In this document: one piece after another, positions 26,991 to 29,276 of the stretch
Numbering within the stretch: the first letter of the stretch is position 1
Layout: each line of letters starts with the position of its first letter
Assembly: GCF_900188065.1 (NCBI RefSeq)
Contig: NZ_FZNQ01000002.1
Location: 62,001 to 126,000, forward strand
Reading direction: 5' to 3'
DNA: 64,000 nt
Origin: Halorubrum vacuolatum
GTDB lineage: Archaea > Halobacteriota > Halobacteria > Halobacteriales > Haloferacaceae
The notes under the pieces: model-generated
Seen by the model: only the letters and a program-made list of their open reading frames with translations
The model's database searches: none
Told to the model about the DNA's origin: nothing
Position numbers and translations under genes: made by a program

Positions 26991-28385
26991 TCACTCGGCG
27001 TGCGGGTGACCCTCGACGCGGTTGCGGATCTCGATCCGACCCTCGATGGCCGGGTCGATGCCGTGTTCACGGCCGTAGTCGGCGAGCACCTCGTACTGGA
27101 TGTCGGCCTCGCCGATCCGGTGACGCTGTTGCAGCGTCGGGAACTCGTGTTCGGAGTGCAACAGGTACTCCGAGGTCGCGAGCGTGTATCGGCCGTCGGG
27201 ATCGATCGGCTTCCCGCCGACGGTCGCCTCGACGAGCCGGTCCGCCGTCGCATCCCAAACGACCCGGGCGTTCGAGACGTGTCCGTGCCACCAGTCCGCC
27301 TCGCCGAAGTCGACGTCGGGGGCCGCCATCTCCCGCAACACCGCCCGAAGCTCCCGCCCGGAGAGCGAGACGAGCACCACCGGCTCCTCGAAGGGGATCA
27401 GGCTGATCAGGTCGGCTTTGGTCACCTCGCCCTGCCACGGATCGCCCTGACGCAACCCCCCGGCGTTCGAGAGGCCGACATCGGCGTCGTGGGCCCATCG
27501 GAACGCGTCCGCGACGAAGTTCCCGACGCGACACTCCCCGCCGTGGACGACCGCGCCGGTTCGTTCGATCGGTGTCTCGACCCGGCCGATCACCTCGTCG
27601 AGGTCGGCGGCGGCCATCCGCGCTTCGAGCGTCCCTTTGAGCGGTTCATACGGGGATGCACCCGTCGGTTCGTGTAGCGTCGCCGTCGCGCGTGACCCGT
27701 CGAGGTCGACTTCGATCACCGTCTCGCCGTTCACACCCGGCCGCACGAGCAGCGTGTCGTGGACGTACTCGTTTCGTCGGCTGTGAACGTGTCCGCCGAG
27801 GATAGCATCGACGTCGAGGGCGGCCGCGAGGTCGTCATCGCCCCCGCCGAGATGGGAGAGGACGACGAGGCGATCCGGCTCGCCGGCCGTCGTACGGAGG
27901 TCGGCGATCGCTTTCCGGGCGGCCGTCACGGGCTCATCGAACGAGAGCGGCGCGGCCATCGGGTTCAACGAGTCCGTCGCCGGATCCGTGAGTCCGACGA
28001 ATCCGACCCTCGTCCCGTCGACTCGACGGGTCGTCCACGGCACGACGCCCTCGGAACGGCCGAACGGCCCGCCCTCCTCATCGCGCACGTTCGCGGAGAC
28101 GAACTCGACGGGTGCGTCGGCGACGAGTTCGCGGAGCGGATCCGGCCCATAATCGAACTCGTGGTTGCCGAAGGTGTCGAGGGCGGTGTCGGTGGCGGCG
28201 TAGAACTCGAGGATGTGCCGTCCCTTCGCGACGAGCGAGAGCACGCCCGGGGCGGTCGTGTCGCCCGTGCCGACGACGAGCGTGTCGGGGCCCGAAAGCG
28301 CCCGGATCTGCCCGGCGAGTCGGGCCGCACGCTCGGGGGCGTCGAAGACGTTCTCGATATCGGAGTAGTGGACCAACCGGGCCAT
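26991..28385 (-). CDS. 5'-nucleotidase / metallophosphoesterase (UshA-like), cytoplasmic
   Basis: A 464-residue two-domain enzyme. The N-terminal calcineurin-like metallophosphoesterase has HYSDIENVF in place of the usual DxH, then GTGDTTAPG, GNHEFDYG, LSHLGGGDDD and GGHVHS. The C-terminal 5'-nucleotidase domain has NFVADAFRWAHDADVGLSNAGGLR and DFGEADWWHGH. No signal peptide is seen, unlike many bacterial UshA proteins, so it probably acts on nucleotides in the cytoplasm. The first metal motif is unusual and worth checking. The start is ATG 28385. Confidence 0.88.
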   Translation of the reverse strand: MARLVHYSDIENVFDAPERAARLAGQIRALSGPDTLVVGTGDTTAPGVLSLVAKGRHILEFYAATDTALDTFGNHEFDYGPDPLRELVADAPVEFVSANVRDEEGGPFGRSEGVVPWTTRRVDGTRVGFVGLTDPATDSLNPMAAPLSFDEPVTAARKAIADLRTTAGEPDRLVVLSHLGGGDDDLAAALDVDAILGGHVHSRRNEYVHDTLLVRPGVNGETVIEVDLDGSRATATLHEPTGASPYEPLKGTLEARMAAADLDEVIGRVETPIERTGAVVHGGECRVGNFVADAFRWAHDADVGLSNAGGLRQGDPWQGEVTKADLISLIPFEEPVVLVSLSGRELRAVLREMAAPDVDFGEADWWHGHVSNARVVWDATADRLVEATVGGKPIDPDGRYTLATSEYLLHSEHEFPTLQQRHRIGEADIQYEVLADYGREHGIDPAIEGRIEIRNRVEGHPHAE

Positions 28386-28414
28386 CTACCCGGATCGAGT
28401 CGCCCGAAGCGGGT

Positions 28415-28467
28415 AAAGGACTCGAAGGAGGACGGCACGGGGGGCAAAGGACTCGAAGGAGGACGGC
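28415..28467. repeat. 22-bp direct repeat, 31-bp period
   Basis: The 22-mer aaaggactcgaaggaggacg plus gc is identical at 28415-28436 and 28446-28467, just upstream of the 5'-nucleotidase start on the other strand. It could be two copies of a regulator site or a simple duplication. The rest of the gap to 28560 holds no gene. Confidence 0.85.
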
Positions 28468-28601
28468 GGCGAGAGTCGATCGACATGTCGACGAAGCGGA
28501 CGAAACCGCACGCAACGGACGGCGTGCGTCCGGCTCACATGCCCGGATCGCATTGGACACGCTTTTATGATGCCCTTGCCAATTCCGGGCTACAGCCTCT
28601 T

Positions 28602-28660
28602 CGGGGTTGATGATGTGCCGTTCCGTTAGGGACCGACCACGGGACGGACACGCGAGCCCG
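28602..28660 (+). promoter_or_regulatory. Structured leader of the L7Ae operon, candidate kink-turn
   Basis: A TATA-like cttttatga at 28562-28570 gives a leader of about 90 bases. In it, CGGG (28602-28605) pairs with CCCG (28657-28660). A 12-bp helix (28615-28626 with 28639-28651, one bulged A) forms a second stem. Between them the loop strands are GTTGATGAT, containing the C-box-like TGATGA, and GCGAG. L7Ae binds kink-turns, and leader binding by L7Ae is known for an archaeal homologue; here the fit to the consensus is imperfect. Confidence 0.4.
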
Positions 28661-28682
28661 CGGGGAGGATAGGTGAACAACC

Positions 28683-29045
28683 ATGGCAGTTTACGTAGAT
28701 TACGACACCCCAGCCGACCTCGCAGAGCGAGCCCTCGAGGCGCTCGAGGTCGCCCGAGACACCGGTACCGTGAAGAAAGGAACCAACGAGACGACCAAAT
28801 CGGTCGAGCGCGGCAACGCCGACCTCGTCTTCGTCGCCGAGGACGTCTCCCCCGAGGAGATCGTGATGCACCTCCCCGAACTCGCCGACGAGAAAGGGAT
28901 CAGCGTCGTCTTCGTCGACACGCAGGACGAAGTCGGCCTCGCCGCCGGCCTCGAAGTCGGCTCGGCCGCCGCCGCCATCGTCGACGCCGGCGACGCGAGC
29001 GACGACGTCGAGGACATCGCCGAAAAGGTCGCGGAGCTTCGATAA
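28683..29045 (+). CDS. rpl7ae: Large-subunit ribosomal protein L7Ae
   Basis: A 120-residue RNA-binding protein of the ribosome that also binds kink-turns in box C/D and H/ACA guide RNAs and RNase P. The family blocks [20 protein letters not shown] and [15 protein letters not shown], then IPYVFV-like [19 protein letters not shown], are all present. It is the first gene of L7Ae-S28e-L24e-Ndk, with tight spacing (6 bases to S28e). This is the usual haloarchaeal operon. Start ATG 28683, after a structured ~90-base leader. Confidence 0.98.
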
Positions 29046-29051
29046 CCCACC

Positions 29052-29276
29052 ATGAGCGCAGAAGAGGGAACCAGCGACTCGACCACCGCGGAGGTGATCG
29101 AGGTCGTCGGCAAAACCGGGATGCACGGCGAGGCCATGCAGGTCAAATGCCGCATCCAGGAGGGATCAAACCAGGGACGTATCATCACCCGAAACGTCAT
29201 CGGTCCCGTGCGGCTGGGCGACGTGCTTCAGCTGCGTGAGACCCAGCGTGATGCGGACTCCATCGGAGGACGATAA
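29052..29276 (+). CDS. rps28e: Small-subunit ribosomal protein S28e
   Basis: A 74-residue OB-fold ribosomal protein. It has [16 protein letters not shown] and [18 protein letters not shown], which are highly conserved in S28e, and ends near the conserved LRETQRDAD. The N-terminal ~10 residues are a short acidic extension. It sits 6 bases after L7Ae and one base before the L24e start codon, so these are co-translated. Confidence 0.97.

Follow-up and report, generated by a model that had tools for sequence, protein, structure and literature searches.

The leader of the l7ae gene in the window analysed here, a 64-kb stretch of haloarchaeal DNA, is predicted to form one long hairpin composed of a lower stem (P1), a kink-turn-like internal loop, an upper stem (P2) and an apical loop. 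Comparative sequence analysis confirms that this hairpin is conserved far beyond chance, and the leader is very probably an L7Ae-binding, autoregulatory RNA, which supports the autoregulatory kink-turn proposed in an initial annotation of the same DNA. Feedback through a kink-turn in archaeal l7ae leaders has already been published, and the kind of element is thus known. What is added here is a covarying architecture, a set of matches limited to one order within the sample, a bulge of mostly 4 nt, an apical RGGA element and a C-helix that is predicted to be prefolded.

The closest named l7ae to that of this haloarchaeal genome comes from a Halorubrum MAG (97% identity), and the order to which the genome belongs is presumably Halobacteriales. 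Judged by its sequence, the encoded protein is an orthodox L7Ae. Its best matches in the PDB are ribosomal L7Ae/eL8 chains, with 1s72_F (50S ribosomal protein L7Ae) matching at E 6.2e-54. The genes for L7Ae, S28e, L24e and nucleoside-diphosphate kinase (ndk) would share one common transcript. These genes and the parts of the leader are as follows.

26991-28385, minus strand: divergent upstream gene, nucleotidase-like, under the cut-offs of named families
28563-28567, plus strand: TATA-like TTTTA, recognised from the sequence, 33 nt before P1
28596-28603, plus strand: 5′ strand of the outer helix of P1, pairing with 28661-28668, double changes at 6 of 8 pairs
28604-28607, plus strand: 5′ strand of the inner part of P1 (C-helix), GGGU, pairing with 28656-28659 (GCCC), with U:G at −1b:−1n
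28608-28613, plus strand: bulged strand of the kink-turn, bulge UGAU followed by G1b and A2b
28614, plus strand: position 3b (U)
28615-28625, plus strand: 5′ strand of P2 (NC helix), 11 bp, pairing with 28640-28651, A28648 bulged
28626-28639, plus strand: apical loop, 14 nt, far longer in many relatives
28629-28632, plus strand: RGGA element, GGGA in the window
28640-28651, plus strand: 3′ strand of P2 (NC helix)
28652-28653, plus strand: extra nucleotide G and position 3n (C)
28654-28655, plus strand: non-bulged strand of the kink-turn, G2n and A1n
28656-28668, plus strand: 3′ strand of P1, consisting of GCCC, bulged G28660 and CGGGGAGG
28671-28676, plus strand: Shine-Dalgarno (SD)-like AGGTGA, 2 nt after P1 and 6 nt before the start codon
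28683-29045, plus strand: l7ae (eL8), 120 aa, NCBIfam TIGR03677 (167.6 bits against a cut-off of 134.6)
29052-29276, plus strand: S28e gene, downstream of l7ae, NCBIfam NF003080
29278-29469, plus strand: L24e gene, downstream of l7ae, NCBIfam NF034186
29466-29942, plus strand: ndk gene, downstream of l7ae, NCBIfam NF001908

Given the position of the TATA-like TTTTA, the RNA would begin near 28590-28592, and the l7ae leader would therefore measure ~91-93 nt (to 28682), in keeping with the ~90 bases estimated earlier. Among 93 related leaders (alignment A4, below), the first TATA-like match lies 32-35 nt before P1 in 33, and in the other 60 a loose TATA pattern is first matched at 44-45 nt (TTTGA is seen upstream). 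Scanning 28386-28700 for a bacterial-type promoter and terminator revealed none. It is reported that 72% of the protein-coding transcripts of Haloferax volcanii are leaderless (PMC4983044), and therefore a leader of ~91-93 nt would be unusual there. Searches with Rfam 15 at gathering score returned two tRNAs alone in the whole window and no family over the leader, and so routine annotation is likely to miss the l7ae element.

The minimum free energy of the segment 28588-28690 is −46.3 kcal/mol (z −3.05), a value as low as which was obtained with 2 of 200 dinucleotide shuffles. P1 comprises 8 + 4 bp, for which the predicted pair probabilities in the window sequence are 1.00 (mean, outer part) and 0.97 (inner part). 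In the internal loop that follows, UGAU-GA-U faces GC-GA. The initial annotation had pointed to TGATGA opposite GCGAG, and both are indeed there, at 28608-28613 and 28652-28656. It had also drawn a 12-bp helix and a closing CGGG/CCCG helix. The first of these exists, but it has 11 bp rather than 12 and bulges out a single A (28615-28625 with 28640-28651); the second is present as part of a larger 12-bp stem (28596-28607 with 28656-28668, G28660 bulged). The base bulged between the two parts of P1 (28660; column 146 of A4) is a purine in 82 of the 93 sequences.

The comparative evidence was drawn from 210 l7ae loci, many of which are near-duplicates (the 211 entries hold 164 distinct upstream strings of 90 nt, and L001-L130 hold 119). 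Thirty-one short leaders, the window's included, were aligned without structure to give A2, which equals A1 (37 rows) minus six rows that were badly aligned by MAFFT. The structure tested on A2 was read from A2 itself and the test thus favours it, which should be kept in mind when noting that 86.3% of its pair cells are paired, compared with 76.0% in shuffles and 39-52% with slid partners, and that none of 500 shuffles reaches its covariation score of 0.334 (0.150 in shuffles). A covariance model built from A2, and hence from 31 leaders that include the window's, recovers the window leader (28594-28677, directly before l7ae) with 88.2 bits and E 7.7e-22, and the next-best match within the 64-kb window scores 14.5 bits.

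A broader alignment, A4, holds 93 loci (92 distinct rows) chosen from L001-L210 for spread, all 93 of which match the model at E 0.0001 or better. Its rows were fitted to the model structure and so lean towards it; with this caveat, 93.2% of the pair cells are paired in the 92 distinct rows (80.5% shuffled, 39-47% with slid partners), the covariation score is 0.397 against 0.164 in shuffles, and double changes occur at 18 of 23 pairs, amounting to 228 doubly changed cells against 57.4 in shuffles. P2 contributes double changes at 10 of its 11 pairs, with 90.0% of its cells paired. Its upper part has the weakest pairs, columns 31-130 being unpaired in 46 of 92 rows and columns 36-126 in 23 of 92. 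From the 5′ end of P1 to the start codon, the 93 sequences span 82-152 nt.

Loop conservation among haloarchaea, which the initial annotation had named as a check, is borne out in the same alignment: the bulged strand keeps UGA in 93 of 93 sequences, and the helices on either side covary. Together with the opposite strand, it gives GA/GA in 88 sequences, the window's among them, and GA/AA in five, the non-standard pairs in both cases being predicted from the letters. In those five rows (L034 and L199 among them), the non-bulged strand has AA instead of GA, which amounts to a non-standard second pair. The bulge measures 4 nt in 75 of the 93 sequences, including that of the window, and exactly 3 nt ending in U in the other 18; its letters are UGAU (66), CGAU (9), CAU (6), CGU (6), UGU (4), GAU (1) and GGU (1).

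The UGAU of the window can be read either as a 4-nt bulge or as GAU plus one unpaired U. In the usual box C register, the first GA of TGATGA forms the sheared pair. This register was considered for the leader and rejected, given that the CAU, CGU, UGU and GGU variants (17 of 93) are without the first GA and keep the second. The 3-nt bulges ending in U that stand before the same GA in 18 of 93 sequences fix the register, and since the 3-base variants except GAU have no first GA, the second GA must be the sheared one. The pair at −1b:−1n is U:G in 88 sequences, C:G in three and U:A in two, and 3b is C or 3n is G in 16 of 93. The poor fit of the third consensus pair, remarked on earlier, is real: 3b:3n is U:C in the window and likewise in 52 of the 93 sequences, and it is explained by the extra nucleotide that the GA strand carries in 74 of 93 (by model columns).

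The distribution of the element was assessed in 130 loci of the order, one genome each and the window's included, with a match defined as E 0.001 or better; 143 genomes had an l7ae match, 13 of them outside this set. Of the 130 loci, 120 have a model match ahead of l7ae (90 of 100, for which positions were rechecked, and 30 of 30). Two further loci, L049 and L093, match as two halves around a long insert, and the eight loci without a model match are L110, L111 and L113-L118. Another genome of the order (L258) has a weak upstream match (24.8 bits), in which the 3′ half is legible before the gene. A search of 196 sampled genomes from the phylum, with strict filters and E up to 0.01, gave 31 with a match, all in the order of the window; the 165 without a match include, among those listed, at least 18 outside the order and at least two inside it. 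None of 16 l7ae loci outside the order matches the model at E up to 10. Within the sample searched, the large element thus appears to be found in this order alone. Across 59 genomes, the best match away from l7ae scores 25.4 bits. The window's own genome yields one match alone at E up to 1, and therefore no second copy, and no copy was seen near nop5 in 30 nop5 loci (58 genomes with a match), where the best score is 10.8 bits.

Some of the loci of the order that escape the model carry a smaller structure. Right before the SD of L114, L116, L117 and L118 is a small hairpin that reads CGU-(GAU or AAU)-GA, a 5-bp helix, a 4-nt loop and GA-ACG, and L113 resembles it with two C-helix pairs. The first helix pair is A:U in two of these five compact relatives and C:G in three, and all five place the kink-turn loop under a hairpin loop of 4-5 nt, with no apical element. 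The AT-rich L115 has quite different letters, with a 7-bp C-helix, a 4-nt bulge CAAU, GA/GA and a 13-bp helix (G-U allowed), and none of 3000 mononucleotide shuffles does as well. A scan for compact kink-turns was also positive in 1594 of 5000 shuffled leaders, and single compact cases other than L115 are therefore weak when taken alone. Some divergent lineages of the order thus have a compact classical kink-turn where others have the large element, a pattern which suggests that the large form arose later, by elaboration.

The C-helix of P1 is predicted to be folded already when L7Ae is absent. By nearest-neighbour prediction at 37 °C, conditions that differ from multi-molar KCl, the outer part of P1 has a median probability of 0.984 in the 93 sequences (above 0.8 in 70, below 0.2 in three) and the inner part one of 0.945 (below 0.2 in 16); for P2 as drawn, the median in single sequences is 0.597. 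In the five compact relatives, the predicted value for the C-helix is 0.001-0.149 when the RNA is set to begin 27 or 31 nt past the TATA box. However, the C-helix of L117 rises to 0.52-0.60 with a start 5 nt upstream (0.02-0.15 with TATA-set starts), and in another short piece L117 folds with the C-helix formed, so the contrast between compact and large forms depends on the true start. By these predictions, the large form does not show the stem-loop instability without L7Ae that Huang 2019 associates with an OFF switch. With P1 predicted to form before any protein binds, the published picture of a stem that forms on binding may not carry over, and binding is more likely to alter the shape and stability of an existing stem than to create one.

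Above P2, the RGGA element is in register in 85 of the 93 sequences, though columns 36-126 hold anywhere from 12 to 78 nt. In three of the eight off-register rows (L053, L160 and L166), the alignment displaces the element, which reads AGGGA there. RGGA is able to pair with UCCU if G-U is allowed, and GGATCACCTCCT, which we take to be the 3′ end of 16S rRNA, occurs six times in the genome. A pairing of the 5′ strand of P1 (CCUN) with an apical NAGG, which would free the SD, was also considered and rejected: no covariation is seen, and P1 position 4 and column 40 mostly make non-pairs.

On these observations, we judge it probable that the l7ae leader is a cis-acting kink-turn RNA, bound by excess L7Ae so that ribosome loading is blocked. 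Binding of L7Ae to the leader is expected from the kink-turn signature and from published work on other archaea, and we infer the direction of control and the steric block. In such a mechanism, free L7Ae (eL8) in excess of its rRNA and guide-RNA sites would bind the UGA/GA internal loop and thereby kink and lock the stem; the locked stem would block ribosome loading at the start site, lowering translation of l7ae and perhaps also of S28e, L24e and ndk behind it. As the SD-like sequence mostly begins from 3 nt inside the stem to 6 nt past it, bound L7Ae would stand at the ribosome's doorstep. Relative to the 3′ strand of P1, the SD-like sequence overlaps by 1-3 nt in 38 of the 93 leaders and begins 0-6 nt after it in 52. 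A match of at least 4 nt is present in 90 of the leaders and absent in three, although eight of the 90 are just 4 nt and these are raw counts with no shuffle baseline. The SD of sod is reported not to be used in H. volcanii (Kramer et al. 2014), which weakens a mechanism based on SD masking and keeps an effect on mRNA stability among the rivals. For gvpH, a review describes one case in which the SD helped (PMC7531240). Further points against the proposed mechanism are those 52 leaders, in which the SD-like sequence lies beside P1 and not within it, the stability predicted for the outer stem without L7Ae, the lower predicted probability of P2 and, in 16 of 93 sequences, of the inner P1 pairs, the 4-nt bulge and extra nucleotide of most copies, and the eight loci of the order that lack the large element. 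A variant that we hold tentatively, and regard as possible though doubtful, is that the leader is prefolded and L7Ae bends the existing stem as a shape switch, with RGGA as the site that recruits or holds a ligand, the 30S subunit or some other, which would let control operate despite weak SD use in haloarchaea.

Should L7Ae binding act instead on mRNA stability or processing, the kinked stem would protect or expose the 5′ end of the transcript. The doubtful use of SDs in H. volcanii, the start of P1 only a few nt from the expected transcript start and the 52 leaders with the SD-like sequence outside P1 all speak for this explanation. We nevertheless consider it rather unlikely, given that SD-like sequences are as frequent as described and that the authors of a published GFP-reporter experiment in E. 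coli read the down-regulation they saw as translational control (Daume 2017, PMC5539422). The leader might also or mainly bind the ribosome or another protein through RGGA, with the kink-turn as a scaffold. The steadiness of RGGA in a region of such variable length and its potential to pair with UCCU are what would be expected, but the kink-turn core is more constant still, the compact relatives (L113, L114 and L116-L118) keep the kink-turn loop and dispense with the apical element, and there is no known ligand, all of which make this reading improbable.

Attenuator-like control through an upstream ORF, the alternative named in the initial annotation, begins from a frame that does exist: it opens with ATG, runs for 20 codons (28610-28672) and stops 10 nt before l7ae. 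It is not conserved, however. From the same ATG (82 leaders) or GTG (11), the frame spans 6 to 164 codons in the 93 leaders, by which a conserved leader peptide was rejected; its end varies between 83 nt ahead of the l7ae start and ~400 nt beyond it, where one run was cut off by the limit of the sequence read. The ATG is nothing more than a segment of UGAUGA, and we give this alternative very little credence. No more credible is a box C/D guide RNA lying within the leader, which could account for an exact CUGA opposite the UGA strand in 6 of 93 sequences and for a weak match to Rfam sR28; that match (8.7 bits, E 4.2) is far below the family cut-off of 39, for which the candidate was rejected, and the region between the boxes is a covarying helix and not open guides.

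Our preferred reading, binding of excess L7Ae to a kink-turn that controls ribosome loading, has a precedent that is stronger than the initial annotation, which mentioned feedback in another archaeon, had known. Daume et al. 2017 (PMC5539422) report that L7Ae of S. acidocaldarius exerts feedback with its own l7ae leader, and that in E. coli the same protein down-regulates reporters with several archaeal l7ae leaders, including a ~50-bp piece from H. volcanii; a figure legend in that report also places a Kt-b strand further upstream in H. volcanii. The present element shares with the leaders in that report its gene, its leader position, a GA/GA kink-turn and a nearby SD. It differs in extent, given that their H. 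volcanii construct took only ~50 bp upstream whereas P1 begins 82-152 nt before the start codon here. It differs also in conservation, which their report describes as high only in Sulfolobales, whereas it becomes clear across one haloarchaeal order once structure is used. The l7ae leader of A. fulgidus (Huang, Ashraf and Lilley 2019, PMC6298567) is likewise similar in having GAU before GA/GA and an adjoining SD. Stems of the A. fulgidus type are, however, described as having low intrinsic stability and folding on binding, whereas the outer part of P1 is predicted here to be preformed, and the haloarchaeal leader is further set apart by its 4-nt bulge in 75 of 93 sequences, its extra nucleotide and its RGGA apical element. 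The rules of Huang 2019 suggest that most haloarchaeal copies need protein to kink, since only 3 of 93 sequences have C:G at −1b:−1n and only 16 have C at 3b or G at 3n, although those rules do not cover U:G at −1b:−1n, the state in 88 of 93. Another relative in kind is the yeast L30e kink-turn, in which the mRNA of a ribosomal protein of the L7Ae family is used for self-control (PMC5539422, PMC6298567); unlike the haloarchaeal leader, it is eukaryotic and acts on splicing as well.

Among the literature matches listed (titles and abstract openings, with few subscription journals), none was found to describe the full structure of the haloarchaeal l7ae leader or its limits, covariation or RGGA element. 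Where there was a general claim for archaea, one order now has a defined RNA family whose helices, kink-turn register and variants are described, so that feedback on the production of a protein of ribosomes and guide RNAs becomes testable in tractable haloarchaea. It also sharpens two questions, namely how a leader switch operates where SD pairing is reportedly not used, and whether L7Ae can exert control through a kink introduced into a stem that has already formed at high salt.

Scanning and inspection by eye gave no convincing kink-turn upstream of l7ae in L111, which is in the order, or in L267 and L268, which are outside it, and control by L7Ae may have been lost in these three. The compact kink-turn scan found no match in L267, L268 and L272, and in L262, L270, L271, L273 and L274 its best match leaves the doubled-box strand unconnected with the GA that precedes the SD. 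This doubled box, RATGA-D-T-D-ATGA (where D is A, G or T), is present in 13 of the 16 leaders from outside the order and within the same phylum (L259-L274), lies 32-64 nt ahead of the aligned start of l7ae and is exemplified by GATGAATGATGA; its chance rate is one in 3200 shuffles. It may be what Daume 2017 (PMC5539422) already saw as Kt-b. The doubling of the box suggests that two alternative kink-turn registers might be available in these leaders.
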